Shown: positions 8,541-41,272 of the stretch, piece by piece
How positions within the stretch are numbered: the first letter of the stretch is position 1
Layout: each line of letters opens with the position of its first letter
IMG/VR virus record: IMGVR_UViG_3300006802_000191
Coordinates: 1 to 41,272 of that record
Source: a virus
DNA: 41,272 nt
Direction: 5' to 3' (one strand)
Notes under the pieces: generated by a model
The model's input: only the letters and a program-made list of their open reading frames with translations
The model's database searches: none
Told to the model about the DNA's origin: nothing
Program-made: the position numbers and the translations under genes

Positions 8541-8977
8541 TACGTTGTTAGTACTACTTCAATTTGCTCTTGAGAAGCCGCGTCATCCACAAAAGATAAG
8601 TTGATCAGTATGTAAATACCGTTGAACTCCTCGTTCCCTCCAGGGGCGTTTGTTATACTGACATCTCTAATAACCACTCTTGGCTCGTAAAGCCTAGCTG
8701 CCTCTCTTATTTCAGCATCCATGCTGTCCTTGAGGGATTGGGTGACGGGTTCAAATAAGTATCTTCTGAGGTTCGTTCCGAAGTTAGGGAACATGACTCG
8801 CTCGCCTTTTTGGGTTAGCAAAAGCTGTTTAAACCCAGCATAGATCAAGTCACGGTCAAACTGCTTTGACCAGTCGCCACCTTCAGTTCGGGACAAAGGG
8901 AATCGTACACCTACAGTCCGTTGTCTTCTGGATGTAGTTACGAAGTCTAGCTCTGGTGCAAACAGTGAATTAGCCAT
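8540..8977 (-). CDS. 25: Baseplate wedge protein gp25 (GPW/gp25 family)
   Basis: A 145-residue protein matching the gp25/gpW family, a small wedge component found in all contractile injection systems. It shows the characteristic order: DWSKQFDRDLIYAGFKQLLLT, then GERVMFPNFGTNLRRYLFEP (the EPR-like motif region is the next helix), then an acidic helix and YEPRVVIRDVSI. Size agrees with T4 gp25 (132 aa). It lies upstream of gp6 and downstream of a lectin-domain protein in the tail operon, with TAATG overlaps at the gp6 side and at its own start. There is no visible ribosome-binding site. Function is well supported by both sequence pattern and synteny. Confidence 0.93.
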   Translation of the reverse strand: MANSLFAPELDFVTTSRRQRTVGVRFPLSRTEGGDWSKQFDRDLIYAGFKQLLLTQKGERVMFPNFGTNLRRYLFEPVTQSLKDSMDAEIREAARLYEPRVVIRDVSITNAPGGNEEFNGIYILINLSFVDDAASQEQIEVVLTT

Positions 8978-11964: not shown

Positions 11965-11974
11965 TTTTAATTAT

Positions 11975-13291
11975 TTATAGTACAATTACGGGTCTGCCAT
12001 TTACGGTTAGTCCATTCGCTACTTGAACAGTCGCTACACCCGTACCAGTTATTGGATTGACTTGGACAGGTATTGTATTGGGAGTGACAGCACCTGGAGA
12101 AATGATGTCTAAAGGAACAGTGCTAGTTATGGGAACCGTCGTAGTGATGCCAGCGCAAGCTATAGCCCCAGTAAAGGTTGCTAAGGGGGTAGTGAAAGTC
12201 ATGAGAGGAGATAGGAAATCTATCCCCGTAAGAGAAAAGCTTTGATATGATGTGGATGGGAAAAGAGGGATGTCGAAATCTGTCGGGTTAGGTAGACCTA
12301 TCCCCAAGCTCAAACTTGGGTTTAAGTCGGGAATAACTGGCAAAAGTTTAAACGGTCTGAATCCTGTGGAAGCGACCATTCCCGGCATTGGAGAGTTTCC
12401 AGGAGTTATAGCAGACCCAAAAGTTGCTTTGGTCTTCCCCAGTATTTGGGTGTCTCCTCCCAAAGCATACAATTTTGTGTTACCCGTAGAATGGTTTCCT
12501 ACTTCTACTTCCCCTAACGCTCTTGGGTTTTCTGCCTTAAGTGAGACAAGACCTCCTTCTGAGTGAACTTGCACGCCGTTCTTGGCGAAAAGTTCCGCTG
12601 CCCTCTTGGAAGAATCTATCACCAACCTATTTCCGAGAGAGTCTACGATAATGATTTTGTTTCCGGCATACTCGATGTTCGGACCAGCGTTAGGGTTTCT
12701 AGGGTTTGTGAATGAGAACGGTTGTGCTGGGCTCTGAGTATTCGATAACCCGTCATCTAGAATAATCTTCTTACCAGTAGAAGACTCCAGCTTTGCATAG
12801 TTATGACTTGTCTTTTCAGTGATCTTCTCCGCAAACTCCAGAAGGTGTCCCTTTGGGCTTTTGAACAGATACCTCTCTGGGTAATCATTCTCCTGATAGG
12901 TTGCCTCTGGATCTGGATTACCGTGATTTACCTTGGTGGTTGTTTCGCTAACGGTTCCGTAAGTTTCTCCTGGGACTGGCTTCCTGGGCTTATCTGAGTT
13001 GTTGTTTCTGTGAGGAGTTGTGATGGTTGTTCTTTCCGTTACCGTTCCGGGCATATATGGAGCGGCGAACCAGAAATACTTTTTACTTCCGTCGTGAACA
13101 TCAGCTTGCATGACAAGGACGTTCGTTCCTTTTCCGGGGATTGCGAAGAAGCCATAGTCAGATCCACCGAAAGGGGATGCGTAACCAACAGTCATGGGTT
13201 GATTACCGTTCAGATCGGGATGCTGAACTGATATACTTCCAGACTTCATAGAGTCTGATGTTTCCACTACTTTACAGCAATACAGATGCAT
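11975..13291 (-). CDS. Central spike protein, gp5/gpV/VgrG-like, without lysozyme domain
   Basis: A 438-residue spike protein. The N-terminal ~90 residues form an OB-fold as in gp5 and VgrG: HPDLNGNQPMTVGYASPFGG followed by DYGFFAIPGKGTNVLVM. The middle has SPKGHLLEFAEK and GKKIILDDG, the strand-turn repeats that start the gp5 C-terminal beta-helix, then IIIVDSLGNRLVID and GGLVSLKAEN. T4 gp5 has a lysozyme domain between these parts; here there is none. The last ~140 residues are rich in Pro, Thr and Val and differ from the helix; a PAAR-type tip is not evident. It follows the hub gene with a TAATG overlap, which fits assembly on the hub. The spike pierces the outer membrane or cell surface during contraction. 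Confidence 0.85.
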   Translation of the reverse strand: MHLYCCKVVETSDSMKSGSISVQHPDLNGNQPMTVGYASPFGGSDYGFFAIPGKGTNVLVMQADVHDGSKKYFWFAAPYMPGTVTERTTITTPHRNNNSDKPRKPVPGETYGTVSETTTKVNHGNPDPEATYQENDYPERYLFKSPKGHLLEFAEKITEKTSHNYAKLESSTGKKIILDDGLSNTQSPAQPFSFTNPRNPNAGPNIEYAGNKIIIVDSLGNRLVIDSSKRAAELFAKNGVQVHSEGGLVSLKAENPRALGEVEVGNHSTGNTKLYALGGDTQILGKTKATFGSAITPGNSPMPGMVASTGFRPFKLLPVIPDLNPSLSLGIGLPNPTDFDIPLFPSTSYQSFSLTGIDFLSPLMTFTTPLATFTGAIACAGITTTVPITSTVPLDIISPGAVTPNTIPVQVNPITGTGVATVQVANGLTVNGRPVIVL

Positions 13292-15951
13292 TATTTAAAC
13301 GCGGTAAATTCTACCGATGCTAGAACGTCCCTTTGAAGCTCAAAAGAGGTCGTGTATCCATCTGTTGAGTTTGCTTGGTGAGTATATCCTAAGATCCTGT
13401 AAACCCCGGAAGACCAGTGATACTTTCTTTCTACTCCGTCATCATCAATGCTTCCTCTCGGATTTGATACAAAAAGAAGAACTCTTCTGAATCTTACGTC
13501 CTTAAAAGAAGATGAGATCTCAGGTATTCCTAAAGTTTTTATAGAAACATTTAAAATATAGTTTAAATATACTTCGTCCAAGAGTGACCTCTTTTTCAAG
13601 AAGTAGCCAATGCCTCCCTTTTCCTGGTTAAAAATTGAAGGCTTAAAGGCTATGCTTGTCCTTGGAATCTTCTTAGATTTTATAATTCCGCTGTCAAACT
13701 CAAACGCCAAATGTGAGGAATCTTCTTCTGGGATAGAAGAGAATAACATATTTCTCACTGATTCGCTCTCTACTGCTGTGAGCATGCGTTCTACATTCTC
13801 GGCAATTGTTTTGGCTCCTCCGGGAATAACGCCAGAGTCCGATACTTTCTTATTGCTTGCGATAAATAGTTTTGCTGTTTCTAAAAACTCTTTTAAAGAT
13901 AGTTGATTCTCATTATATCTTTGAGCCGCAAAAACCAAATCAAAACGCTCAGGCGTGCCACCCAATACGAGCGCGGATACCAAGAAATCATCTTTTACCA
14001 AACCAGAATCAGTAAACACGTTACGGATATCTTGCAAAGATTGGATCATGGACCCAGCCATAACTATAGGAATCTTGATGTCAGAGTTTATGGACATATC
14101 AGAGACAATAGAGTCATCAAAACCTACAGTCAGTTTTAGGACTCCATTAGTACCTAACTCAACTCCTTGAATCTCTGGAACTCCATCGTATAACTGTGGA
14201 AAGGAGTTTATCTCTCCTAACTCGACGGTGTTTTCATCCCCTGATGATTCTCTAAAGAGATCATCTAGTTCTTTGTCAGAACCTATAATGAACAGATGTT
14301 TATCATCTTGAATAGACTCTTTTTGTAACTGTAATAGTACTTTATTTTTTTCTTCTTCTGAAAGTTCACTTACGGGAATAGACTCTACCGTAAGAAGCTC
14401 GTCTTTTTCTTGTGCGGCGGCTAGTATGACCTCGTTGATCTTACTTATTAGACCGTCTAGAACTAATCTGTAATCCAAGGTTGAGGTTTTAGATAGTTGT
14501 ATGTACGCTTGTTTTCTTACCTCTTCTTGTCCTGCTTCTTGATTGCTATCATCGTTAGACGGAGTATTTGAAGGTATCCCTTGTAAAGCTCTTTCGATTA
14601 TTGCTCCAATGAGCAAATAGTCTCTATCATAGTCTTTCAGTACAATAGTCGGATTGTCCAAACCGGAACCTTTTGTATTGAAGAATCTGTCAGTAGTCTC
14701 TAAACCTATTCCGCTTGGAGGTGCTGTGTTTTTACTGGTTACTAAATTAGGAACGGTACATTTTGATTTCAATCCTTCCGGCAAGAACACATATCTCCTT
14801 CCTACGAGTAATTCAACATTCTCTCTGGTCTGCGAAAATAAATCTCCTACCGTAAAGCCAGTGTCCGTCTCAACTCCAAAACCCGTTTTTATAGGTATTG
14901 AAAAAATATCAGATACTTCTCTATTTTGGGATATTGCCTCATAAACATCAGACAGCAGACATACATGATCGCTCCCATCTAATGCGCTGTAAACTCTAGA
15001 CCCTTCATTTAAAATGAAGTCATCGTTAGAAGTAAAAGTTTCATACAGGTTAATCCTTGGATCTAGTTCACCTAGCGTATTCCCATCGTCATTAATCTTT
15101 ACGTCCGTATTTTTGTTTCCCGTGCTTATAGTTTTGGTGTTTATCGTGACAGGCATTCCGAGAGATCTACCTAAGATCTCCCAAGCCTGTTGTTTATATG
15201 GGGTGACAGAGACACCTCCTTCTAAGCCAACTAAAATATCGTTATCTTGTAGTTCTTGAGCTTTCAGACGAATTACCAAATCATCGTATATTCTATCAAG
15301 CTTCTCCATAACAGAAGCAGCTTTGATGTAAGGGAAAACATCGCCTCTGTACTGAGCCAGGAAGTCTTTCAGAAGAACTGGTATAACCTCTGAAGGTCTG
15401 AGAATATCTACGCTGGCACTTTCGGGGAAGTCTAACGGAGTGTCAGGAAGAGTGCCTGTTCCAGCCTCCTTGTACAAACCTTTCTTGACCACAATCTGAA
15501 CTGGTCCGGGTCTTTTATCATCCTGTATTTCATTAAAAGATATTGAATCCAGAAGCGTGAAAGATATCACTCTTTCGTTGCTTGCCGTAAGCGAGTAATT
15601 AACGCTTCCTAAAATTCCTGCTCTCGGAGTTGACATGGACTCCGTAGTGTACCCCCAACTAAAATAAAACTTTATATTGCCTATGGAAGGATTACTAATA
15701 GTGATATTAGGATTGTCCTTAGCGTAAATTAGGTTATACAGGGATAGAAGTTGTTTCTCTGCTTGCTCGCTAGGATTAATGAGAGTAAATGTAGCTTGAT
15801 ACTTACCATTGCCAAAAGAATACTCAAAATCTATAAGAGTATTCTCAAGGTCAAAGGGGTCTGTGTAGCGAGGGTCTCCAAAAGTTTTGATTTCGTCAAG
15901 AGAAGAAGACAGCAACACAAACGCAGGTTTATTATCTACATAAGCCTCCAT
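13291..15951 (-). CDS. Putative baseplate hub protein (gp27/gpD-like), enlarged
   Basis: An 886-residue protein placed between gp53 and the spike, where the hub (T4 gp27, P2 gpD) is expected. The N-terminal part reads FDLENTLIDFEYSFGNGKYQATFTLINPSE, consistent with a tube-like beta domain. The C-terminus has VYRILGYTHQANSTDGYTTSFELQRD, the 'H...GY.T.L.L.R' ending that many hub proteins share. It is more than twice the length of T4 gp27 (391 aa); the extra material, roughly residues 300-650, is acidic and helical in places and has no family that I recognise. TAATG overlaps connect it with gp53 upstream and the spike downstream. Assignment rests mainly on gene order plus the terminal motif, so it is moderate. 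Confidence 0.6.
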   Translation of the reverse strand: MEAYVDNKPAFVLLSSSLDEIKTFGDPRYTDPFDLENTLIDFEYSFGNGKYQATFTLINPSEQAEKQLLSLYNLIYAKDNPNITISNPSIGNIKFYFSWGYTTESMSTPRAGILGSVNYSLTASNERVISFTLLDSISFNEIQDDKRPGPVQIVVKKGLYKEAGTGTLPDTPLDFPESASVDILRPSEVIPVLLKDFLAQYRGDVFPYIKAASVMEKLDRIYDDLVIRLKAQELQDNDILVGLEGGVSVTPYKQQAWEILGRSLGMPVTINTKTISTGNKNTDVKINDDGNTLGELDPRINLYETFTSNDDFILNEGSRVYSALDGSDHVCLLSDVYEAISQNREVSDIFSIPIKTGFGVETDTGFTVGDLFSQTRENVELLVGRRYVFLPEGLKSKCTVPNLVTSKNTAPPSGIGLETTDRFFNTKGSGLDNPTIVLKDYDRDYLLIGAIIERALQGIPSNTPSNDDSNQEAGQEEVRKQAYIQLSKTSTLDYRLVLDGLISKINEVILAAAQEKDELLTVESIPVSELSEEEKNKVLLQLQKESIQDDKHLFIIGSDKELDDLFRESSGDENTVELGEINSFPQLYDGVPEIQGVELGTNGVLKLTVGFDDSIVSDMSINSDIKIPIVMAGSMIQSLQDIRNVFTDSGLVKDDFLVSALVLGGTPERFDLVFAAQRYNENQLSLKEFLETAKLFIASNKKVSDSGVIPGGAKTIAENVERMLTAVESESVRNMLFSSIPEEDSSHLAFEFDSGIIKSKKIPRTSIAFKPSIFNQEKGGIGYFLKKRSLLDEVYLNYILNVSIKTLGIPEISSSFKDVRFRRVLLFVSNPRGSIDDDGVERKYHWSSGVYRILGYTHQANSTDGYTTSFELQRDVLASVEFTAFK

Positions 15952-16256
15952 TACGATATACTAGGGATTTTTATTATCTTTCCTACAGTCAAATCTTCTT
16001 CAGGATCTGAAATATTATTTGCTAACATAATTAACCACCAATAAGCCGCCGTCCCGTAAGCCGCGTAAGAGATAAGATCTGGTCTAGCTTCAAATTGCAG
16101 AGACACCTGAGCTAACCTGCCTTGGACATTAGGTAGATTTTGAACGAATACGTTGTAACGATCAGAAGATGTTACATCTTTGATCTCTTTTCCTTTGTGG
16201 ATCACTCTATTCGATCCTTGTAGGTTGTATCGTGACTTATCTGAATAGGCAGCCAT
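15951..16256 (-). CDS. 53: Baseplate wedge protein gp53-like
   Basis: A 101-residue protein matching gp53 and related LysM-like baseplate proteins. The diagnostic part is ARPDLISYAAYGTAAYWWLIMLAN followed by a short acidic stretch and LTVGKIIKIPS, where the tryptophan pair and the final G-x-x-I-x-I-P strand are typical. T4 gp53 is 196 residues, so this is a shorter form, as is common outside T4 itself. gp53 closes the junction between wedges during baseplate assembly. The gene starts directly at the stop of the tube-cap gene (TAATG); a weak AAAGG lies upstream of the ATG on the minus strand. Confidence 0.82.
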   Translation of the reverse strand: MAAYSDKSRYNLQGSNRVIHKGKEIKDVTSSDRYNVFVQNLPNVQGRLAQVSLQFEARPDLISYAAYGTAAYWWLIMLANNISDPEEDLTVGKIIKIPSIS

Positions 16257-17395
16257 TATCTAATACCTTTAAAGAGTGTGTCCCACCCTTGGAGTGGTGT
16301 GTCGTTGTCAGGTCCGTGTAGAAGACCCTTGTCTTGTCTGAACTCCTCAAGAGTCAGGTCGATGGTAATCACCCTACTGAATAGTGATGCATGATCCATT
16401 CCATTAGCGTAGTCAAAATTGATTCTATAATCTTTAACGATCACAGGCATATCGTTATAAACGATACCCATGTTTAGGCGACCTACGGGAGGACCAAATT
16501 TTTCCAATGATTGAACAGTGCCTATAACGGAACTTCTGGCAACGTTCAACATATACTCAATAATGTGAGTAAGCTCTACATGATATTCGTTGAAAAGGAC
16601 TTGAGCATTGAAGTAGAACTGATTATCAGCCCCCTTTAACTGAACGTTTCTATGGGAAGGCATTCTAGGACCATCGCCGGGATTATTATCTCCATCGGTC
16701 CTGATTATAGTTTCAGATAATCCTACAAGTTTACCGCTCCTAGATACGACCGTTCCATTACCTGCGTACTTAGGGTTTGGTGCAGGACCTATTCCTCCAC
16801 CCCCCATGCCTGACTGCTTTTTTAGAAGCTCGGAGACTTGTCGTTTTATAGCTTGCAAATCTAGGCTTTCTTCAGGGGTTAAGATAGCCGGATTATTCAA
16901 GTAGTTTCCTAAAAACTGGGCTATATGCGGAAGGGTGTAAGTTAGCTTAAGATTTATCCTTCTTGGACCCGACCCCGTATAAAGCCTAACTGGTTCATTT
17001 CTCAAGAAGACGTTTGTGTTGGCGTAGTTTGCCGTGCGTCTCTCAGTTATTTGAGGATTCTCAAAGAATGGAAGTTTTCTGGTTATGGAATTGTTTTCAG
17101 GAAGTTTCAGTTCGATAGGCGGACCTCCGAAGAACTGAGACAGAGTAGAAATAGGGGCTGCAACAACCCCTGTGACTTTTCCTATGTTTTCGTTATGCTC
17201 TTTCATGTATTCGGGGTAAGTGAATCGAATAAATCCTCTTTCCTCTAGAGCGTGTTCAAACTTAGGAGCCCCAAAACTATTCTGCAAACCAGCATCATCC
17301 AGCACAACATCGCTGCCGTCTGGTAGAAAAGGATTCAAGACGTTATAAAGTAACGAACCCCCTGAATCTCCTACTAATTCTTTAAAAAATGCCAT
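16256..17395 (-). CDS. Putative tail-tube initiator / baseplate tube-cap protein (gp48/gp54-like)
   Basis: A 379-residue protein encoded between the tape measure and gp53, the site of gp48 in T4. The middle contains RNEPVRLYTGSGPRRINLKLTYTLPHI, and the C-terminal third has PVGRLNMGIVYNDMPVIVKDYRINFD ending in ITIDLTLEEFRQ. This is the pattern of a tube-fold protein: paired strands, a loop, and a final long strand. Such proteins cap the baseplate and start tube polymerisation. There is a short Gly/Pro-rich linker around residues 195-210. The gene begins 27 bases after the tape-measure stop, and its ATG is preceded by an A/T-rich run without a clear Shine-Dalgarno. The family link is by pattern and synteny, not by a detailed match. 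Confidence 0.6.
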   Translation of the reverse strand: MAFFKELVGDSGGSLLYNVLNPFLPDGSDVVLDDAGLQNSFGAPKFEHALEERGFIRFTYPEYMKEHNENIGKVTGVVAAPISTLSQFFGGPPIELKLPENNSITRKLPFFENPQITERRTANYANTNVFLRNEPVRLYTGSGPRRINLKLTYTLPHIAQFLGNYLNNPAILTPEESLDLQAIKRQVSELLKKQSGMGGGGIGPAPNPKYAGNGTVVSRSGKLVGLSETIIRTDGDNNPGDGPRMPSHRNVQLKGADNQFYFNAQVLFNEYHVELTHIIEYMLNVARSSVIGTVQSLEKFGPPVGRLNMGIVYNDMPVIVKDYRINFDYANGMDHASLFSRVITIDLTLEEFRQDKGLLHGPDNDTPLQGWDTLFKGIR

Positions 17396-17422
17396 TTTTT
17401 AATCTGATACGCACAGGCATCA

Positions 17423-19057
17423 CTATTCTCCGACTCCCACTATACGTACATAGTCTGGGTCTAGCCTTATTTGGGCAGCCCTTAGTTGATTCTGAGTGTA
17501 TATTCCAGCTTTCACTGCTTGACTCGCAGCAGCCATACCCTGTTTTTCGATCAAAACAACAAGCTGCTGTAATAACTTCTCACTTTCTTCCCGAGATCGT
17601 TGGGCTTCTAGTTCTCGTAGTCTTTTGTCTATTAGTTCTTGTTCTCTTGTCATAAGTTCTTGAATTAGTCCTTCGAGGTATATCTTGTTAATCTGTTTTT
17701 GCTCCTCTTCTTCTTTTTCCCATTCTGCTTGAGATTTGTGAATAGGTCCCAGTGCAATACCTAAAGCAGTATCAATAGACCGTGAGTAACCGCCCATGTC
17801 TTGGACAAAATCGTCTACAGACACTGCAAAATCTTTAATGGACGTCACAGTCTCCTTCACAAACGTTTTCGTGATATCTGCAATACCTTTAAAGGTCGCC
17901 ACAGTCTGATCCACAATCGTTTCCGTGACATCAATAATATTTGCCGTTAGTTTTCCGAATCCGTCTCCTTCGATAAACGTTCTAATGTTTTGTCCTAAGG
18001 CTCTGAAGTTTTCTTCCGTAGCTCCTATGGCATTTAGGAATTGATCTCCAAAGCCAGATAGTTTCTCAGCGAACGCTTCACTTCCTCCAGTAAGACCTTC
18101 AAAGAAAGTGAACAATCTATCCTGCAAATTAAACACGAGTCTGTTGAACGCCTCTGTAAGATCTCTACTTCTTTGAGATCTTCTCCCTTCTTCGGCAGCC
18201 TGTTCGTTCAAAGCCTCAAATCCCATATTGCTGGATTCAAGAATCTTCTCCGAGATCAACAGGTCTTGAGCGGTGAACCCAGTAAGTTTCGTAAACTCAC
18301 CAAGCAATCTTGGGTCTGCATTTGGACCTCCGACTCCAAACTGTTCTGCGAGAGTTACAGCAGCTTGAGCAACATCTGTGATGGCGGCTAGAGTGGCTTG
18401 AGTATCACCTCCAGCGGCAACTCTACCAACAGCACCAGGATCTACACCAAGGAGGGCTAGTCTTGCAAAACTATCTTGTGTGGTTCCTGTTACCTTTGAA
18501 AGTATTGTCTGAATACCTCCAATAGCGGTAGGACCAATGCTACCAGCCAATGTAGTCGCAGCGTCTGAGAATGATTTAAATGCGTCTCCTCGGAACTGGA
18601 CAGATACGTTTGCAAGAGTCTGCTGAAGACCCTTTACCAGTTCTGCGAACTTATCTCCAGCAATGTTAAACTGCCTTCCCGCACCGACAACTGCCTCAGT
18701 AAACGCAATACTTGCCTCGGCATTAAGACCGAAGACTTGTTGAGTAGTTGCTAGGATCTCTGAGAAAGCACCGACATTCAGACCCAACCTACTGATATCC
18801 GTTATCAGTTCTAGGTTGGCGGAATTACCAGCTACCCCAACATTAAGGGATTGCTTGAAAATCCCCGTCGCTTCTTTAAAGCTTGCACCAGTATCTTTAA
18901 ACTGGTCAATGAAAGCACCTCTGGAGATGAGATCGTCTCTGCCAGTTTGAGCAGCAACCCGATTTATGTCCTCAAAACTTTTTCTAAACTCTCCGAGAGC
19001 ATTGACAGTTTTGCCAAGCTCATTTACAAGCTCTGTTATGTTGCCGAGAATAGCCAT
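17423..19057 (-). CDS. Tail tape-measure protein
   Basis: A 544-residue protein, close in length to T4 gp29 (590 aa). It is mostly helical with Ala/Gly/Ile-rich amphipathic stretches and many short repeats of the form 'AAxTLAGxIG' and 'FxxLxGxTAQDLL', as expected of proteins that run through the tube lumen and set tail length. Residues about 440-520 form a Glu/Lys/Arg/Gln-rich coiled coil. No protease or lysozyme domain is seen. It is encoded upstream of the tube-cap gene in the tail operon, three bases after the stop codon of the preceding 176-aa gene's coding region. Function is inferred from composition, length and place. Confidence 0.72.
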   Translation of the reverse strand: MAILGNITELVNELGKTVNALGEFRKSFEDINRVAAQTGRDDLISRGAFIDQFKDTGASFKEATGIFKQSLNVGVAGNSANLELITDISRLGLNVGAFSEILATTQQVFGLNAEASIAFTEAVVGAGRQFNIAGDKFAELVKGLQQTLANVSVQFRGDAFKSFSDAATTLAGSIGPTAIGGIQTILSKVTGTTQDSFARLALLGVDPGAVGRVAAGGDTQATLAAITDVAQAAVTLAEQFGVGGPNADPRLLGEFTKLTGFTAQDLLISEKILESSNMGFEALNEQAAEEGRRSQRSRDLTEAFNRLVFNLQDRLFTFFEGLTGGSEAFAEKLSGFGDQFLNAIGATEENFRALGQNIRTFIEGDGFGKLTANIIDVTETIVDQTVATFKGIADITKTFVKETVTSIKDFAVSVDDFVQDMGGYSRSIDTALGIALGPIHKSQAEWEKEEEEQKQINKIYLEGLIQELMTREQELIDKRLRELEAQRSREESEKLLQQLVVLIEKQGMAAASQAVKAGIYTQNQLRAAQIRLDPDYVRIVGVGE

Positions 19058-19060
19058 AAA

Positions 19061-19591
19061 TTATCTGAAGGTTCTAAAGTCTTTATCGTCTACTACACCG
19101 TCTAGGTTGAAGTCTAGGTTCAGGATGAAATCCTCTGGGTCAATGACTGAAAATCTTCTAATCTTTCTGGTGTCATATACCCTGTAGTTTTGCTTGGTTA
19201 GCTGAGTTATTCTTAGTGCTGCTTCTAAAGGGATTATCGGTACATTCTTAAACCTCTCAACCAGTGTAGTAGCCAAGGAAGGAGACAAAGTATCTAGTAG
19301 TAATCCAGCTATATAGGTTTCTCCTTTAGCTTTGCTGGGGATTGGCTTCTTGAAACCTAGAGAATGTTGCTGAAATTTAGGGTATTTAAACCTTAGGCTG
19401 GGGGAACCTCTCCTTTCAACCAGCAAGATTATGGGAAATTGATCTTCAGATTTAGCCCCTCGGTAGTAGAAAGTGTATACCGGGGATATACCCTCAGTAG
19501 GGTCTACTTTTCTGATTTTTCTAAGGACTTTGCTTTTTTGAAGGATGTTAGCTTTTATCTCCTTAGCGATGCCTACAAGTTTTCTTATCAT
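19061..19591 (-). CDS. Tail-operon leader protein with C-terminal EF-hand (dockerin-like) loop, function unknown
   Basis: A 176-residue basic protein, the first gene of the tail operon. I do not recognise the family. The middle contains YTFYYRGAKSEDQFPIILLVERRG and a Lys/Phe-rich segment. The last 17 residues hold a complete calcium-binding loop, D160-F-N162-L-D164-G165-V-V-D168-D-K-D171, which follows the canonical EF-hand spacing D1-N3-D5-G6-V8-D9-D12 and resembles a single dockerin repeat. A very similar loop is present in the scaffold-like protein at 25220-26920. Position next to the tape measure suggests a tail assembly or tail-end protein. The ATG at 19591 is preceded on the minus strand by a TATAAGAG element. 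Confidence 0.7.
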   Translation of the reverse strand: MIRKLVGIAKEIKANILQKSKVLRKIRKVDPTEGISPVYTFYYRGAKSEDQFPIILLVERRGSPSLRFKYPKFQQHSLGFKKPIPSKAKGETYIAGLLLDTLSPSLATTLVERFKNVPIIPLEAALRITQLTKQNYRVYDTRKIRRFSVIDPEDFILNLDFNLDGVVDDKDFRTFR

Positions 19592-26928: not shown

Positions 26929-28629
26929 TTACGCAGGTTGTTGTTGTTCAGGTTCTCCTCCTGGAGCTTGCTCTTCTGGAGCTTGACCTTGTAGCTCTTG
27001 ACCCTCGGGTGCTGCCCCAGGAGCCATTCCCCCTCCCATTCCTGCATCCATTGGAGGTTGGGATGCTTGCATGATTTCGGAATCTCGTTGGGCTTGATCT
27101 TTCATTCTGTTTCGCATATCGCCAACTTCTGCCTTTGTTAGTCCGAAATAGTTTTCGTATAGGAACTGGTCATCGAACATTTGTAGACCTTTCATTCCTT
27201 GTACAATTCTCAGCTTAAACTCATCCAACTCCAGCTTACGCTTTTCATGCATATCTGAAGGTGAGCAAAGAGATACCTTTACTTTTGAGATGCTAATTTC
27301 ATCGTAGCCTCTAAGTAGCAGGTGTCTGGTTATAATAGTATTGATACCCTTCTCTATGTCCTTCTGAAGTCTATGGACGGCTCTTGAGAACTTAACGTCT
27401 AGCTGAGAAAGGTTTGCCTTTCTTTCTGGAGACTTATCCTTTTCTACGATGTAGTCCTTTGGTATTTTAAGAGCGGCTAGAACCTTATCACGGAAGTAAC
27501 GAACATCGTCAACTTCACCTAGGTTCTCAGCACCACGAAGAGTATCGATTCTGGTTCCTTGTCCGCCCTTGATAGGGACAAAGAAGTCCTCATTTACTGC
27601 TAGAGGATTGTGACGCTCGTTGATTGTTCCTGTGTTTGCGTCATAGGTTTGTTGCTTCTTGAATCTTGCCTTTACCTTTTCTAAGAAGTTATCAACCTTT
27701 GTGGTAGGCAAGTTGCCAACATCAATGTAAAATACTCTTCTTTCTGGGGCTCTCTCTAAACGATAAATGAGCATGGCATCTTCCATATATCGGAGGTTTT
27801 CCCATGCTCTAATTGCGGGTGCTGCAATACTTTTGCCGTAAGGATAAAAGTTTACGTCTGAAGTTCTGCGTCTAAAGTGTACTATCTGGTCCTTGGCAAG
27901 TTCTACAACTCTTTCCTTTTGGAGAGAAGGAATTGACTCTGCTTGCTGACCTCCCTTTGTAGGAATCTCTTGAAGGAACTTTTGCAGGTATCCAAAGTTA
28001 TTTTCTACTCGATAAATGTAGTTTGGGTTTAGAACCTTTAGTCTCCTGATTCCTAGATCTTTGTTATTTAGATCTACGATATTCTCTATGAAGCAATCAC
28101 CGTACTTAACGACGTTTCTGACAATATCCCAAATTAGGGTATCAAGGTCAGTAACCTCGATTAGATTTTCTATGTCACGTTTTACTAGCTCTGATTCAGT
28201 TTTGATTTCAAACGACTCACCTTTGAGGGTTTCTTGGGTGGCATCGTCGGCATAAATATCAAAGGCAGTACTGATTTCAGGAAACATATCCATCTTCTCA
28301 AACTGCCTGTATCTTCTCTTTCTAGTTTGCTCTAGTTCTGGCAAACGGTATGAAGATCGAGACACAGAAAGACCGTAGCCGCCTACAGCGTCATTTACAG
28401 CGTTAAAAACGTCTCCACCCGCTACTGACTGGGTATCTCCTTCCGGGTCTTCAGGGAGCTTTGGAGGTCTGCCAGGACCTTTCTTCTTTTGCCCTATTTT
28501 TGGAAACTTCTTGAAGAATGCAGCAAAAGCACCTACAAAACCAGATCGATTGTTGTAGTTTTGATCGCCTGGGAACTCTGTATAGTTCTCTTCAAGCAGT
28601 TCGTCTTTGTCGTTTAGCTCAGAACCCAT
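26929..28629 (-). CDS. 20: Portal vertex protein gp20-like
   Basis: A 566-residue portal protein matching T4 gp20 (524 aa). It forms the dodecameric ring through which DNA enters and to which the neck binds. Characteristic stretches are FDIYADDATQETLKG, IWDIVRNVVKYGDCFIENI, FYPYGKSIAAPAIRAWENL, MEDAMLIYRLERAPERRVFYIDVGNLP and KVLAALKIPKDYI. The last ~55 residues are rich in Gly, Pro, Gln and Met, a common ending of this family. Its 5' end overlaps the terminase stop by 16 bases, and the scaffold-like gene follows after eight bases, so the three head genes form one transcription unit. Confidence 0.95.
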   Translation of the reverse strand: MGSELNDKDELLEENYTEFPGDQNYNNRSGFVGAFAAFFKKFPKIGQKKKGPGRPPKLPEDPEGDTQSVAGGDVFNAVNDAVGGYGLSVSRSSYRLPELEQTRKRRYRQFEKMDMFPEISTAFDIYADDATQETLKGESFEIKTESELVKRDIENLIEVTDLDTLIWDIVRNVVKYGDCFIENIVDLNNKDLGIRRLKVLNPNYIYRVENNFGYLQKFLQEIPTKGGQQAESIPSLQKERVVELAKDQIVHFRRRTSDVNFYPYGKSIAAPAIRAWENLRYMEDAMLIYRLERAPERRVFYIDVGNLPTTKVDNFLEKVKARFKKQQTYDANTGTINERHNPLAVNEDFFVPIKGGQGTRIDTLRGAENLGEVDDVRYFRDKVLAALKIPKDYIVEKDKSPERKANLSQLDVKFSRAVHRLQKDIEKGINTIITRHLLLRGYDEISISKVKVSLCSPSDMHEKRKLELDEFKLRIVQGMKGLQMFDDQFLYENYFGLTKAEVGDMRNRMKDQAQRDSEIMQASQPPMDAGMGGGMAPGAAPEGQELQGQAPEEQAPGGEPEQQQPA

Positions 28630-30086
28630 TTACGATATTCCTTCATTCGGTCGGTTTTGTCCTGGTACTCCGACCTAAATATCTTTTCAGCCAGACTTTC
28701 CTGCTCGGCTTCTTTCTTATCTAGAGTGACCGGAGAGTTTTCTAAAATATCTTTTATAGCATAACATCCGAGTGCCAAGCTCATCACCAAGTCATCATTA
28801 TAGCCTTTTTCAGCTTCAATCTTATTTTCTTTTACGACAAAGGTTCCTAATTCGTCTACTAATCTGTTTGAGTTTACTTTGATTAGGGATCTGCGTAGAG
28901 AATCCTCCATGTGAGCAAGGGCTTTTTCCTTTTCAATTTTAGTAGTTTGGATTCCGAACTGCCCTTTGTCATCCATATAGATGTTTTCGTAGGCAAGTTC
29001 GTGGAATAGCTCCTCAAACAAGACAATGCCTAAAGCATTCCTCTCGATGATAACGTAGGCTAGGTTATATCTATTTCCTTCTTCGTATATTACCTTTGCT
29101 AACTTCTTTACTGAAATAGTGTTAGAGCAAAACTCGGCTACCTGCTCACCAGAATACAAATCGATGATATGAAAAGCCGTGTTATCTCTTCCTCTACCGT
29201 ATGCCGGATCTACGGACAATGCGTACTGGTGATAGGGCTCTGGATCTTTCCACACTCTGTAAGCTCTGGTGAACTTCTCTGAGAATTCTTCGGAGATGTT
29301 GTGGGATAGTTTTCTTAGGGTGTTTCCGTCTACGAAAGTGTCACCTGTTCCCAAGAACTCACACTCATACTCTTGCAGCCATGACCTCTCAGGCATAGAG
29401 CTTTTCATAGACTTAGCCCACTCTTCAGTATAGTCAGGATGCTCTTGCCATCGAATATCAATTGCATTGAACTCGTTTTTACCTTGTATGGCATTCTGGT
29501 AAAGCTGATAGTACAGGTTAGCTGTGCCGTTTACGGTAGAGATGAGGAAGGCTTTACCGCCCGTTGATACCGTTGGGAACACTGCTTGCCAAAACTCCTC
29601 AAAGTCTTTTACGAATGCCGCCTCGTCTACAACGATGATAGAGGCTGATTCTGATCTACCAGCACCCGCTGGTTGAGATTTGATCTTAGAGCCTGTCGAT
29701 AGTTCTAGTGTGCTTTTGTTCCTTTCTGTAACCTTTGGTTTTAGCCACACGGGTAGTTCATCATACATCTTCACGACACGATTCAAGAATGCTTTGGCTT
29801 CTCTATCACCGATTGATACACAAAGGATGTTTCGGTGTCTTTCAAAGATAATCATGTGCAAACTGTACGCTGCCATGATCGTTGTAACCCCAGCCTGACG
29901 AAACTTTCTTACGATGTTGAATCTGTGGTTGTGAACCTCGTTTACAATTCTCTGCTGAAATCTAAAAAGTTTAAAAGGTATTCTGCCTTTAACAGGGTGA
30001 TCTATTTTTACATACCTAGTAATGAAATAGATTGGATCTTCTCTGCACTTTTTTAGCTCTTCAAGAATCTTATCTTTACTTGTCAT
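28614..30086 (-). CDS. 17: Terminase large subunit gp17-like
   Basis: A 490-residue packaging motor. The N-terminal ATPase has a deviant Walker A, RKFRQAGVTT at about residues 58-68, where the lysine sits at the start of the loop rather than before the last Thr pair; this variant is known in several large terminases. Walker B and the catalytic Glu are IIVVDEAA. The C-terminal RNase-H-like nuclease has SVDPAYGRGRDNTA (first Asp), VIIERNALG (Glu) and YNDDLVMSLALG (Asp). T4 gp17 is 610 aa, so this form lacks some N-terminal sequence. No intein is present. Its ATG is only three bases from the divergent ATG of the glycosyltransferase gene. Confidence 0.95.
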   Translation of the reverse strand: MTSKDKILEELKKCREDPIYFITRYVKIDHPVKGRIPFKLFRFQQRIVNEVHNHRFNIVRKFRQAGVTTIMAAYSLHMIIFERHRNILCVSIGDREAKAFLNRVVKMYDELPVWLKPKVTERNKSTLELSTGSKIKSQPAGAGRSESASIIVVDEAAFVKDFEEFWQAVFPTVSTGGKAFLISTVNGTANLYYQLYQNAIQGKNEFNAIDIRWQEHPDYTEEWAKSMKSSMPERSWLQEYECEFLGTGDTFVDGNTLRKLSHNISEEFSEKFTRAYRVWKDPEPYHQYALSVDPAYGRGRDNTAFHIIDLYSGEQVAEFCSNTISVKKLAKVIYEEGNRYNLAYVIIERNALGIVLFEELFHELAYENIYMDDKGQFGIQTTKIEKEKALAHMEDSLRRSLIKVNSNRLVDELGTFVVKENKIEAEKGYNDDLVMSLALGCYAIKDILENSPVTLDKKEAEQESLAEKIFRSEYQDKTDRMKEYRKWVLS

Positions 30087-37009: not shown

Positions 37010-38083
37010 ATGTCACTTATCAGAGCGTTAAACCCTCTTACATACTTTGATCTTCTAATGCGCTTATGGAAAAAGCGTGAGTCCACTCCAAAGAAAGAGA
37101 AACAGGTTTTTCTTGGGGCAATGCTCCATGTAGAATCCCTTCAGAATAGTGAAGCTCGTAGGTCACTACTGAAGACTAAGTTCGACGGTTACCTAGACGG
37201 TAACGCAATGAAGTGGATGAACCTTTTGGATAAAACCAAAAGTGGCTACGAAGACTACGACTTTTCCAAAGCAGAGCAAATGCTGAAGTTTGCTGAGGCC
37301 AATGGAAAACGGACTATGCTTCACACGCTGTTGTGGGCTAAACCGTCATTCTTCCCTGTCAAACGTGGCTATCCGATTACTGATCGGACTGCTCGTATCA
37401 AAGCAAACACAAAGCACATCTCTAAAGTAGTCGGTCACTTCCGTGGTAGGTTTGACTACATTCAAGTCTGGAATGAGCCTCTAGAACCCAAAGGCAAGGC
37501 TCTAAAGACTTTCCCAGGTGTTGAAGACATCACTTGGGAAGAGATCGGAATCAACCTTCGTCAAGCAAAGACGATGGACCCACAAGCTAAGGTTGGTATC
37601 AACGACTACAACATCGAGGATTACCAACGCTACCAAGTAAAAGTTAATAACTACGTAGAAGCTATCAAGTGGCTTAAAGAAAACGGCTATCCGATTGATT
37701 TTATTGGATGCCAAGCTCACATCCGTGCTGAAGAAGACGTAAAAGAAAGCGCGCTCCGCGATGCATTTAAAGCTCTGAAAAGTACAGGAGTAGAAGTTCT
37801 AATTACAGAACTAGATATTTCCATTGCAGGTTTGACAGGTATGACTCAGGCAGAAAAACTCCAAAAACAAGCAGAACTAGCTGGGAGAATTTACCGAGCA
37901 GCAAAAGCAGAAGGAGTTAAAGAAATCTGGACCTGGGGTTTGGATGACGCTGAATCCTGGCTTTACGCTAAGAATGAAACGGAATTTCCAGAAGAAGCAC
38001 CGCTAATGTTCGGACCTAACCAAGAACGCAAGCCTTGGTGTAAAAAGGTCAAAGAACTTGGACACGGCTACGAAGCTTGGTAA
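37010..38083 (+). CDS. Glycoside hydrolase family 10 (endo-beta-1,4-xylanase-like)
   Basis: A 357-residue enzyme with the full set of GH10 motifs: LHTLLWAKPSF near residue 105, IQVWNEP with the acid/base Glu156, VGINDYNIED, FIGCQAHI, then VLITELDIS with the nucleophile Glu267, and IWTWGLDDAESW. GH10 enzymes cut internal beta-1,4 bonds in xylan or related glycans. The N-terminal ~30 residues (MSLIRALNPLTYFDLLMRLW...) are hydrophobic and basic but do not form a clear signal peptide. It sits in a cluster of small phage genes, with a late-promoter-like motif before it. Codon use seems similar to the neighbours, so if it was acquired this is not recent. It might be virion-bound or act after lysis. 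Confidence 0.9.
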   Translation: MSLIRALNPLTYFDLLMRLWKKRESTPKKEKQVFLGAMLHVESLQNSEARRSLLKTKFDGYLDGNAMKWMNLLDKTKSGYEDYDFSKAEQMLKFAEANGKRTMLHTLLWAKPSFFPVKRGYPITDRTARIKANTKHISKVVGHFRGRFDYIQVWNEPLEPKGKALKTFPGVEDITWEEIGINLRQAKTMDPQAKVGINDYNIEDYQRYQVKVNNYVEAIKWLKENGYPIDFIGCQAHIRAEEDVKESALRDAFKALKSTGVEVLITELDISIAGLTGMTQAEKLQKQAELAGRIYRAAKAEGVKEIWTWGLDDAESWLYAKNETEFPEEAPLMFGPNQERKPWCKKVKELGHGYEAW

Positions 38084-39233: not shown

Positions 39234-39671
39234 ATGCTGACCATCGCTCAGATCCTCACCCTCTGCCTCCTGCAAGTGCCGGGACAGAATGCCATTCTCA
39301 AGAAGGACGGACAGGCTGCTGCTGCTGATTTCAGGGATGCCGTAGAGGTAAACATTCGCCCAGGATGCCGTCCCTTGCTGGCTCCTATCGTGGCTGCTAT
39401 TCGATACGCCGAGAACGGTAGAAAGGGGCGGGAGTTCGGGGTGCTGCATCCTCGCTGCCCGGACACTTATAGAGGTCAGGCGGGTTGGTGTGCCGCAACT
39501 GTTCAGAAGAACTATGACCGCTGGGTTGCAGCGGGTAAGAAGGGGGATTTCCTTTCCTTCCTCGCCTCCAAATATGCTCCCGTGGGTGTGGACAATGACC
39601 CCAATAACCTGAATGTTCATTGGTATAAAAATGTCCGCTTTTATGTTGGCAAGTTCGGTGGTAAGCTGTAG
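39234..39671 (+). CDS. Possible lysozyme-like/endolysin-related protein (145 aa)
   Basis: A 145-residue protein. It begins with a short hydrophobic segment, MLTIAQILTLCLLQVPG, that could be a signal peptide or anchor. The main part includes IVAAIRYAENGRKGREFGVLHP with a central Glu, then AATVQKNYDRW and DFLSFLASKYAPVGVDNDPNNLNVHWYKNV. This phrase series recurs in small phage and bacterial proteins that I believe have a lysozyme-like fold, with the Glu of AENG as possible catalytic residue. The evidence is only pattern-based. Codon use is GC-richer than in the late genes. The promoter of this gene is less clear than for the following genes. Confidence 0.5.
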   Translation: MLTIAQILTLCLLQVPGQNAILKKDGQAAAADFRDAVEVNIRPGCRPLLAPIVAAIRYAENGRKGREFGVLHPRCPDTYRGQAGWCAATVQKNYDRWVAAGKKGDFLSFLASKYAPVGVDNDPNNLNVHWYKNVRFYVGKFGGKL

Positions 39672-39674
39672 AAT
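39646..39674 (+). promoter_or_regulatory. Sigma70-like promoter directly before a start codon
   Basis: TTGGCA (39646-39651), 17-base spacer, TAGAAT (39669-39674), then six bases AGAAGC and the ATG at 39681. The first three bases of the -10 are the stop codon of the upstream gene. Confidence 0.6.
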
Positions 39675-39680
39675 AGAAGC

Positions 39681-39932
39681 ATGGAAAAAACAACCTGGAA
39701 AGACCTCATCGAATCCGCCGCTCAGGGCGAGCCTGTGGTCGCTTGCACTTTGTCGGAGGAGGAAATGAATAGGGAGTTTGACAGGGGTTACGGGCTCCCG
39801 CAAGGGACGCCATTTACGGCTTGGACCAAGACTAGGGTTCTCTTCCCTGTTTGCTACGACGGTGCAGAGTGGGTAGGTTCAGCCCCCAGAAATCCTAGCG
39901 ACGAAGTCACCGAGCATCAAGGTTCCTGGTAA
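39681..39932 (+). CDS. Small protein of unknown function (83 aa)
   Basis: An 83-residue acidic, soluble protein with FDRGYGLPQGTPFTAWTKTRV and a Gly/Trp-containing C-terminus. I recognise no family and see no membrane segment, repeat or catalytic motif. It has its own sigma70-like promoter with six bases between -10 box and ATG, so its mRNA would start at or near the ATG. No Shine-Dalgarno is visible. Likely an early-expressed accessory protein, as the promoter type differs from the late-type elements in the structural region. Confidence 0.6.
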   Translation: MEKTTWKDLIESAAQGEPVVACTLSEEEMNREFDRGYGLPQGTPFTAWTKTRVLFPVCYDGAEWVGSAPRNPSDEVTEHQGSW

Positions 39933-40053
39933 CTCCTAAGTCCTTTCCCCTTACGGGGTTAGGGCTAGGGAGCCCCCGCCCCTCGGCTGCCATTTTGGCA
40001 GGGTATAGGGGAAAAAGAACTTACGACTATTTGAAATATTCCCTAGAAAAGAC
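39933..40053. other. Structured G/C-rich intergenic region
   Basis: Contains several possible hairpins: CCCC-TTAC-GGGG, GGGCT-AGGG-AGCCC, and CTGCC-ATTTT-GGCAG (39987-40001). None has a T-run after it, so they are not classic terminators. No gene is seen. The third hairpin is repeated in inverted form at 41142-41165. Confidence 0.5.
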
Positions 40054-40081
40054 TTGCATTCTACGGAAAGTATGGTATAAT
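40054..40081 (+). promoter_or_regulatory. Sigma70-like promoter of the 71-aa gene
   Basis: TTGCAT (40054-40059), 16-base spacer, TATAAT (40076-40081), then GTTAGC and the ATG at 40088. Confidence 0.8.
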
Positions 40082-40087
40082 GTTAGC

Positions 40088-40303
40088 ATGAAAGAAAAGA
40101 AAGAAACGAAGACCATGACCGATAAGCATGGCGTCACTTGGACTATCGAACACAACCCTACCAAGTTCTTCGAAGATAGCCATATCGGCTACTCCGATAC
40201 CCCTAACGCTGGTGTGTCCATGCCGCACTATACCGTGCTTTTCACTCGCTCAGGTGCTTTGCGTTGGCAAAAGCGTATGGTGAAAGAAGCAAATAATCGC
40301 TAG
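40088..40303 (+). CDS. Small protein of unknown function (71 aa)
   Basis: A 71-residue protein starting MKEKKETKTMTDKHGVTW and ending LRWQKRMVKEANNR. The start at 40088 is chosen because the promoter -10 box ends six bases before it; the longer frame upstream would start before this promoter and cross the hairpin region. It is basic, soluble and has no recognised domain. It belongs to a set of short genes, each with its own promoter, that look like early host-takeover genes, though this is inferred from size and promoter type only. Confidence 0.65.
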   Translation: MKEKKETKTMTDKHGVTWTIEHNPTKFFEDSHIGYSDTPNAGVSMPHYTVLFTRSGALRWQKRMVKEANNR

Positions 40304-40310
40304 AAAGTAC

Positions 40311-40338
40311 TTGCAATATGCCGAGAAGAGTGTATAAT
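40311..40338 (+). promoter_or_regulatory. Sigma70-like promoter of the 52-aa gene
   Basis: TTGCAA (40311-40316), 16-base spacer, TATAAT (40333-40338), AGAAGC, ATG at 40345. The -35 begins eight bases after the previous stop codon. Confidence 0.85.
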
Positions 40339-40344
40339 AGAAGC

Positions 40345-40503
40345 ATGAAAGAAAACAAAGCATTCACCGTCTACTGCATGATCGATATCGATGCTCCCGA
40401 AGCACTGTTTACTGGCACTTGGGATGAATGCGAAGCCTTTATCGAAAAGGACCGTACTTCCTTCGGTCGTAACATCCTGCGAAAGTTCTACGCTATTCGC
40501 TAA
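40345..40503 (+). CDS. Small acidic protein (52 aa)
   Basis: A 52-residue protein beginning MKENKAFTVYCMIDIDAPEALF and ending FGRNILRKFYAIR. It has one Cys in VYCMID and another in WDECEAF. No family is recognised. Start and frame are fixed by the promoter directly upstream, whose -10 box ends six bases before the ATG. The stop is followed after seven bases by the next promoter's -35. Too short to infer function; coding is likely because it fills the whole interval between two promoters. Confidence 0.6.
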   Translation: MKENKAFTVYCMIDIDAPEALFTGTWDECEAFIEKDRTSFGRNILRKFYAIR

Positions 40504-40510
40504 AAAAGAC

Positions 40511-40538
40511 TTGCAATCCCTCAAAGATACGGTACAAT
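40511..40538 (+). promoter_or_regulatory. Sigma70-like promoter of the small membrane protein gene
   Basis: TTGCAA (40511-40516), 16-base spacer, TACAAT (40533-40538), AGTAGC, ATG at 40545. Confidence 0.8.
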
Positions 40539-40544
40539 AGTAGC

Positions 40545-40703
40545 ATGAACAAGAACCTCAAGAAGCACCTCTCCTGGAAAAATGGCTTCATCGCTCTTAG
40601 CCTCCTGGTGTTCTCGGAAGCCTTGTCCTGCGTGTGTCTCGCCGTAGCTAGGGTGTTCTTGGTGGTCGCTGATGTCCTCGGAAATATCCCGGATATCGTG
40701 TAA
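40545..40703 (+). CDS. Small membrane protein (52 aa)
   Basis: A 52-residue protein: a basic start MNKNLKKHLSWK, then a long hydrophobic segment from about residue 14 to 45, GFIALSLLVFSEALSCVCLAV and continuing RVFLVVADVLG, enough for one or two membrane helices. Two Cys in CVC lie in the middle. The promoter is immediately upstream, with the -10 six bases from the ATG. A small membrane protein in an early cluster could act on host membrane functions, superinfection or defence. No family is recognised. Confidence 0.65.
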   Translation: MNKNLKKHLSWKNGFIALSLLVFSEALSCVCLAVARVFLVVADVLGNIPDIV

Positions 40704-40736
40704 AGCCTAGCCCATAGAATGCCGATAAAAAAGCAC

Positions 40737-40764
40737 TTGCAATCCTCCAAGAAAGCTGTATAAT
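40737..40764 (+). promoter_or_regulatory. Sigma70-like promoter of the 48-aa gene
   Basis: TTGCAA (40737-40742), 16-base spacer, TATAAT (40759-40764), AGAACCC, ATG at 40772 (seven bases in this case). Confidence 0.85.
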
Positions 40765-40771
40765 AGAACCC

Positions 40772-40918
40772 ATGAAGATCATCGCCTACGCCGCTTGGGA
40801 TAGCGAGTTCAACCTCGTCAAGTTCGACACCGAAGCAGAAGCCATCGAGTTCTGCGGTGATCCTGACCGTGTGATCCCTATCATCGAGACCGAGGAGATC
40901 GTCATTGAGAAGGAGTAA
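40772..40918 (+). CDS. Small acidic protein (48 aa)
   Basis: A 48-residue acidic protein, MKIIAYAAWDSEFNLVKFDT followed by EAEAIEFCGDPDRVIPII and ending in EEIVIEKE. It resembles in its alternation of strand and helix the small single-domain proteins of phage early regions; no family is recognised. It has its own promoter. Its last codons hold AAGGAG, which can act as Shine-Dalgarno for the next gene four bases downstream, so these two genes form a pair. Confidence 0.6.
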   Translation: MKIIAYAAWDSEFNLVKFDTEAEAIEFCGDPDRVIPIIETEEIVIEKE

Positions 40919-40922
40919 AGAA

Positions 40923-41135
40923 ATGGATAAGTCCAAGAAAGAACTGCTGGAGGAAATGTTCCCCGAAGTGGCTGCTGCTCTGAGGGCTATCTTCTACGCT
41001 GGTGCTCCTATCTCCTCCCGAGTTATGAGCTTCGATGTGATGATTTGGGAGTGTGCCTATTGCGGCGAAGAGAACGGTCATGATGATGACTGCGCGTATA
41101 AGATGGCAGAAAACGCTTACGAAGATTTGGACTAA
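40923..41135 (+). CDS. Small protein with CxxC motif (70 aa)
   Basis: A 70-residue acidic protein starting MDKSKKELLEEMFPEVAAAL and containing WECAYCGEENGHDDDCAYK, a C-x-x-C pair, a His and a further Cys suited to zinc binding. It starts four bases after the previous stop and uses the AAGGAG in that gene; unlike its neighbours it has no promoter directly before the ATG. An alternative in-frame ATG lies 18 bases further up inside the previous gene but lacks a Shine-Dalgarno. Function unknown. Confidence 0.65.
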   Translation: MDKSKKELLEEMFPEVAAALRAIFYAGAPISSRVMSFDVMIWECAYCGEENGHDDDCAYKMAENAYEDLD

Positions 41136-41141
41136 GCCTCT

Positions 41142-41192
41142 AGCCCCTGCCAAAATGGCAGGGCTCCGGCGGCGGGTTACAACCCTCCTGCC
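41142..41192 (+). other. Two mutually exclusive hairpins after the CxxC gene
   Basis: GGCAGG (41157-41162) can pair either with CCTGCC upstream (41146-41151, loop AAAAT) or with CCTGCC downstream (41187-41192), the latter enclosing GGGTT-AC-AACCC. No T-run follows. It could be a structured 3' end or a switch-like element. Confidence 0.4.
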
Positions 41193-41227
41193 TTGTAAAG
41201 ATGTACCTCGGTTTTTGGATTTTATTA

Positions 41228-41255
41228 TTGCAGGGGACGAAAGTGGGCGTATAAT
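41228..41255 (+). promoter_or_regulatory. Sigma70-like promoter at the right edge
   Basis: TTGCAG (41228-41233), 16-base spacer, TATAAT (41250-41255), GTAGGC, ATG at 41262. Confidence 0.8.
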
Positions 41256-41261
41256 GTAGGC

Positions 41262-41272
41262 ATGAGAAACGA
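41262..41272 (+). CDS. Start of a further small gene, truncated by window end
   Basis: Only the start codon and two more codons (M-R-N) are inside the window. It is called because the promoter directly upstream has the same architecture as those of the preceding small genes. Confidence 0.4.

Follow-up and report, generated by a model that had tools for sequence, protein, structure and literature searches.

A tandem array of promoter and start-codon modules predicted to yield leaderless mRNAs in a lineage of distant T4-type phages

The array at the end of the record

The window analysed here, 41,272 bp long, is the whole of IMGVR_UViG_3300006802_000191, a linear record in IMG/VR. At its right-hand end, where the genome is incomplete, the plus strand carries six modules of the form TTGNNN, 16-17 nt, TANAAT, 6-7 nt and ATG, with the ATGs at 39681, 40088, 40345, 40545, 40772 and 41262. 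All six modules named in the original prediction are present, the one at 39646 with a 17-base spacer and the other five with 16 bases, and these five can be written as TTGCA(T/A/A/A/G)-N16-TA(T/C)AAT-N6 or N7-ATG.

The first module and its gene (39646-39932, plus strand) consist of the -35 element TTGGCA at 39646-39651, a spacer of 17 nt, the -10 element TAGAAT at 39669-39674, and 6 nt leading to the ATG at 39681 of an 83-aa protein assigned to phrog_21631. This -35 is weak; at its place, a sister assembly of this phage has TTGACA. The element is located inside the preceding gene, whose stop codon TAG is overlapped by the -10. The second module and gene (40054-40303, plus strand) combine TTGCAT at 40054-40059, 16 nt, TATAAT at 40076-40081 and the hexamer GTTAGC ahead of the ATG at 40088, which opens a 71-aa gene. 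The third and the fourth (40311-40503 and 40511-40703, both plus strand) each precede a gene of 52 aa, with TTGCAA at 40311-40316 and 40511-40516, spacers of 16 nt, TATAAT at 40333-40338 and TACAAT at 40533-40538, and the hexamers AGAAGC and AGTAGC before the ATGs at 40345 and 40545, respectively. In the fifth (40737-40918, plus strand), TTGCAA at 40737-40742, 16 nt and TATAAT at 40759-40764 are followed by seven bases, AGAACCC, and by the ATG at 40772 of a 48-aa gene. The sixth (41228-41272, plus strand) is formed by TTGCAG at 41228-41233, 16 nt, TATAAT at 41250-41255 and GTAGGC; the ORF starting at 41262 is truncated, with only 11 nt before the contig end, and the sole other contig that covers this end breaks off at the identical position.

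The lone array gene without a module (40910-41135, plus strand; 70 aa) carries the Shine-Dalgarno sequence AAGGAG at 40910-40915, at a normal distance from its ATG at 40923, and is probably cotranscribed with the module-5 gene. The proposal that the genes are independently transcribed is supported by the presence of one promoter per gene, with this exception. The placement of each -35 only a few bases after the previous stop applies to two modules (8 nt), whereas the remaining gaps measure 34, 93 and 122 nt and the -35 at 39646 follows no gap at all. Two palindromes, with no strand assigned, are found in the region: GCTGCCATTTTGGCAGG at 39986-40002, upstream of module 2, with terminator or operator as candidate roles, and CCTGCCAAAATGGCAGG at 41146-41162, upstream of module 6. 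A scan for intrinsic terminators gave nothing beyond shuffled sequences. The array also holds near-repeated units of 39-70 nt.

The array is not a product of chance. The strict pattern has 5 matches against 0.01 expected in shuffled sequence, and none of 20,000 sequences simulated for the 1.67-kb stretch with an order-1 Markov model contained more than 2 modules, against the 6 observed. A relaxed pattern (TTGNNN, 15-18 nt, TANAAT, 5-8 nt, ATG or GTG), applied to both strands of the 41,272 bp, found no match beyond the six modules.

Judged by the T4-type TerL, portal and baseplate homologues of its lineage, the record is a distant T4-type myovirus. The large terminase (T4 gp17-like; 28614-30086), used as the anchor for finding relatives, the portal (26929-28629) and the gp25 baseplate wedge (8540-8977) are all encoded on the minus strand, and the helicase and primase genes on the plus strand. 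Scans of the 41,272-bp record for tRNAs and Rfam families were negative, and a near-match DNA search among isolate phages gave no match. The host scan of genomes returned only two weak matches, to MAGs from unlike phyla. The nearest isolates are Rhodothermus and Aeromonas phages for terL, Flavobacterium phages for the portal, and actinobacteriophages for the array genes. The homologues of the 39681 gene, found in mycobacteriophages and in Curtobacterium phage Transit, give a hint of actinobacterial hosts, whereas terL and portal point elsewhere. Among mycobacteriophages, Che8 has no such module before its homologue of this gene. In Actinobacteria, leaderless genes are common (PMC3160421).

Module arrays in related phages

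Two converse searches connect the module with this phage lineage. A DNA-only search of viral contigs with CTTGCA-N17-TAYAAT-RNNRGC-ATG retrieved 71 stretches, about two dozen of which turned out, by tblastn run afterwards, to encode relatives of the record's proteins, with identities of 43-48% for terL and 43-56% for the portal; the proteins encoded at 39234 and 30090 were also matched. Matches to the relaxed pattern number about a dozen in L015 and in L080, 9 in L023, 7 in L065 and 6 in L036. The other route was an alignment search with terL, which made no use of the module and gave 80 loci. Whole records selected in this way hold 7 modules (G003, 57.8 kb), 8 (G005, 66 kb), 8 (G004, 83 kb) and 6 (G006, 102 kb), against two matches in total for a reversed-pattern control over 20 records. 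Since the motif search retrieves terL and portal relatives, and contigs selected by terL carry the array, the module is, on these comparisons, a trait of this phage lineage. The orientation is equally constant: 18 stretches combine terL with two or more strict modules, and in all of them the modules lie, without exception, on the strand opposite terL. Modules were found in only 23 of 107 terL-bearing stretches, most of which are too short to reach the array, and some lineages may be without it.

The carriers of the array form a group of uncultured aquatic phages. Apart from them, many contigs with a single match, often of high GC, show no visible relation to the record and may represent chance matches or other phages.

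Most module genes have no known function. A homologue of the 71-aa product of the 40088 gene, 51% identical and also preceded by a module, is encoded in L065; a search with the 71-aa protein matched the sister contig only. Among the relatives, module genes for sigma-70-like proteins stand over the Pfam cut-off in L020/L048 and L057, with weaker candidates in L041 and L054. No sigma gene was found in the record itself, and the sigma-like protein had no match among isolates. Other module-driven products in relatives include proteins with a Phage_L5_gp82 domain, DUF932, DUF2958, and a pyrimidine-dimer glycosylase-like protein.

Promoter geometry and translation starts

The distance between promoter and start codon was assessed by a position-free scan, which collected every TTGAC- or TTGCA-type -35 with TAYAAT in related and array-bearing contigs and ignored start codons. 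After setting aside as seeds 27 sites that match the search pattern, 70 sites were left. The first ATG after the -10 occurs at 6 nt in 43 of these 70 and at 7 nt in another 12, and 4 further sites have an ATG at 6-7 nt behind an earlier one, giving 59 of 70 in total. Of the 29 sites in the DNA selected by terL (0.92 Mb), 17 are followed at 6-7 nt by an ATG opening an ORF of at least 25 codons and one more by an ATG with a short ORF, most of the others corresponding to the background in reversed sequence (8 sites). No GTG or TTG start was found at 6-7 nt after the -10 in relatives.

The elements themselves are of the sigma70 type, which is characterised by a TTGACA-like -35, a spacer of 16-18 nt and a TATAAT-like -10. 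The -35 comes in two forms: TTGCA is paired with a 16-nt spacer at 42 sites, and TTGAC with a 17-nt spacer at 38. The -10 is mostly TATAAT and usually has GG before it, often TGG. As the regular expression fixes TTG and TANAAT, their conservation is in part a consequence of the search; the base at -1, the distance and the start register outside the seeds were left free.

The A of the ATG falls 7-8 nt downstream of the -10, a spacing that would make the transcription start coincide with the start codon, as expected for leaderless genes. The base before the ATG is C in all 43 non-seed sites with 6 nt and in 11 of 12 with 7 nt, whereas all four bases occur at position -2 (G 20, A 16, C 5, T 2). 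Bacterial RNA polymerase favours C(-1)A(+1) as an initiator, and a transcription start at the A of the ATG would predict this pair. A start 1-5 nt further upstream, for example at a purine at -2 or -4, would leave real promoters with a very short leader, whose 5'-end-proximal AUG would be recognised much as in a leaderless mRNA. Start sites can vary by 1-3 nt and many discriminators are purine-rich (AGGGGC, AGAAGC), yet such a start is unlikely, given that -1 is almost always C while -2 varies and that a start at -4 would lie only 3 nt below the -10.

The module ORFs are, as far as the comparisons tell, real genes. Homologues of module proteins in other contigs share 27-88% identity, and among 36 pairs less than 90% identical, 21 are in exact register, the alignment beginning in nearly all of these with residue 1, at the module ATG; most of the other pairs are offset by a few residues. 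Codons 2-6 contain 49% A, against 22% further in, and codon 2 is usually AAA, AAC or AAG. Leaderless mRNAs are known to require an AUG at the 5' terminus, to which 70S ribosomes bind, AUG being the preferred codon (PMC9031893).

A Shine-Dalgarno sequence is missing before all six module ATGs of the record, as had been noted originally, and a Shine-Dalgarno-like match of any kind was found in only 6 of 120 cases, the starts being AUG. This absence is unspecific in these phages: most genes of the contig, the structural ones included, have none either, and in a rough gene call on 12 lineage sequences such sites appeared at a minority of genes. The home-made caller behind it overlooked many small genes, and its output served solely to obtain Shine-Dalgarno rates and upstream motifs. 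Due to this general scarcity, the lack of a Shine-Dalgarno is weak evidence. More telling are the array gene at 40923, a natural control that has a Shine-Dalgarno where no -10 adjoins it, and set-back promoters of the module type, which do not adjoin an ATG and are followed by Shine-Dalgarno-like sequences (L023, L048, L065 and L073). The set-back promoters bear on the possibility that the main translation proceeds from a longer, polycistronic read-through mRNA at A-rich or unstructured starts, the adjacent promoters merely boosting supply. The genes of the array are co-directional and closely spaced, and the many other genes without a Shine-Dalgarno imply that the host tolerates such starts. 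Read-through of this kind is nonetheless quite unlikely, as it leaves the fixed 6-7 nt spacing, the C at -1 and the Shine-Dalgarno sequences at set-back promoters unexplained.

The two -35 forms interchange before homologous genes (for instance, L028/L043 and L077/L080), and in 20 homologous pairs the spacers are 48% identical, with the -1 base conserved in all 20. The notion that the modules are a compact repeat, such as a recombination or binding site, that only resembles promoters would suit the near-repeated units of the array, but was rejected as highly improbable because spacers drift and TTGACA/17 and TTGCAA/16 replace each other, which follows the logic of a promoter and not that of a sequence repeat.

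Proposed mechanism and its meaning

The reading preferred here, with a probability of roughly 0.8, is that the modules act as independent host sigma70-type promoters that give leaderless mRNAs for small early genes. It is from their architecture, conservation, start register and orientation that we infer the transcription start, the leaderless translation, the early timing and the use of the host polymerase. The leaderless design originally proposed gains strong support from the relatives in five respects: the 6-7 nt between -10 and ATG, the C at -1, the exclusive use of ATG, the register of the proteins, and the Shine-Dalgarno sequences at set-back promoters. In the proposed mechanism, the host RNA polymerase would bind a -35 of either form, TTGACA with its 17-nt spacer or TTGCAA with its 16-nt spacer, and the -10, for which GGTATAAT is frequent, and would begin transcription at the A of the ATG, a purine after a near-invariant C, 7-8 nt below the -10. 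Host 70S ribosomes would then initiate on the 5'-terminal AUG with no need of a Shine-Dalgarno. The array genes are probably early, considering their host-type promoters, their location on the strand opposite the structural genes, their small ORFs and the sigma-like genes of some arrays. Every gene would form its own cassette, and the array would probably fire on DNA entry, before the structural genes of the other strand. In some relatives, the sigma-like product of a module gene could shift the polymerase to a later promoter class.

A second upstream signal exists in the lineage. At other genes, TATAATA is enriched near the start codon (35 genes against 5 expected, with a peak at -11), and upstream of terL, at about -17 to -13, CTATATAATAG frequently occurs unaccompanied by a -35. 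This CTATATAATAG element resembles T4 late promoters. Together with the sigma-like genes in some arrays, this signal suggests a possible two-stage programme. A tentative and rather doubtful extension is that the programme is largely leaderless: the sigma70 leaderless cassettes would encode early takeover proteins, including a sigma-like factor, which would turn the polymerase to a class devoid of -35 (TATATAATAG or CTATAATAG, near the start codons of late genes, terL among them), producing near-leaderless late mRNAs poor in Shine-Dalgarno sequences.

Several known systems share parts of this design. The lineage resembles the T4-like myoviruses in its homologues of TerL, portal, UvsX-like recombinase, helicase, NrdA and gp25. 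However, its TerL is at most 35% identical to those of isolates, and single-gene leaderless cassettes are predicted here, whereas T4 genes are leadered and have a Shine-Dalgarno. Curtobacterium phage Transit (PQ868977.1) has, upstream of its gene 1, an unannotated ORF 39% identical to the 39681 product and preceded by TTGACT-N17-TATGAT-N6-ATG, but it is a small phage with a terminal protein and its own DNA polymerase, and shows a single clear module instead of an array. Thermus phage phiYS40 produces leaderless middle and late mRNAs (PMC3594737). It too is tailed, and host ribosomes translate its many leaderless transcripts, although its leaderless class is middle and late, in contrast to the tandem sigma70-type promoter array of small, probably early genes described here.

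Among cellular organisms, in Deinococcus-Thermus and Actinobacteria a -10 located about 12 nt upstream of the start codon makes transcription begin at that codon (PMC12340547, PMC3160421), and ORFs adjacent to a -10 are common in Deinococcus-Thermus (PMC12340547). The genes concerned are dispersed in high-GC cellular genomes and carry a TANNNT signal; in the present lineage, the -35 is near consensus, the spacers are fixed at 16-17 nt and the modules are clustered in a phage array. The transcript of lambda cI, from a host sigma70 promoter, also begins at the AUG (PMC3160421, PMC9031893), but cI is a single regulated gene and not an array of probably early ones. Leaderless phage mRNAs are thus already known. 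No report of a tandem array of leaderless cassettes conserved across a phage lineage was found in the open-access literature, subscription papers being mostly outside this coverage, and on that basis the lineage-conserved tandem early array appears to be new within a known leaderless kind.

For a virus, the array would be an unusually uniform means of activating many small genes. If the proposed reading is true, the region for host takeover would be built of interchangeable cassettes of promoter and start codon, in which a small gene could be swapped together with its complete expression signal. The module would also offer a handle, readable from sequence, on early small phage genes that may be misplaced or missed by gene callers reliant on the Shine-Dalgarno, and the extent of leaderless translation among phages would become a directly testable question.

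Palindrome and contig end in the module array

The palindrome CCTGCCAAAATGGCAGG occurs twice in the array of module genes (window 39986-40002 and 41146-41162), each copy preceding the -35 box of a module at a distance of about 50-65 bp. It is also found in four of the compared DNA stretches (L020, L048, L111 and L028). In L020 and L048, relatives with a module gene for a sigma-70-like protein, there are five copies, spaced 700-1000 bp. The palindrome may be a terminator or an operator. Two assemblies of the window phage share their end base within the array, at window 41272.

The Curtobacterium phage Transit homologue

The 39681 gene, the first module gene of the array, has a homologue in an unannotated ORF of Curtobacterium phage Transit (PQ868977.1, 130-372, minus strand), preceded by a predicted leaderless-type promoter, TTGACT-N17-TATGAT-N6-ATG.

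Genes outside the array

In relatives, terL and other non-module genes can be preceded by a CTATATAATAG / TATAATA element that lies near the start codon without a -35 box and resembles T4 late promoters; its position peaks at -11 across genes overall and at -17 for terL. The structural genes of the window (2503-19591, minus strand) lack Shine-Dalgarno sites, and many carry an A/T-rich TATA, CGTA or AAAA immediately 5' of the ATG. The phage also encodes a glycosyl hydrolase family 10 (xylanase-like) protein (window 37010-38083; Pfam E 5.5e-54).
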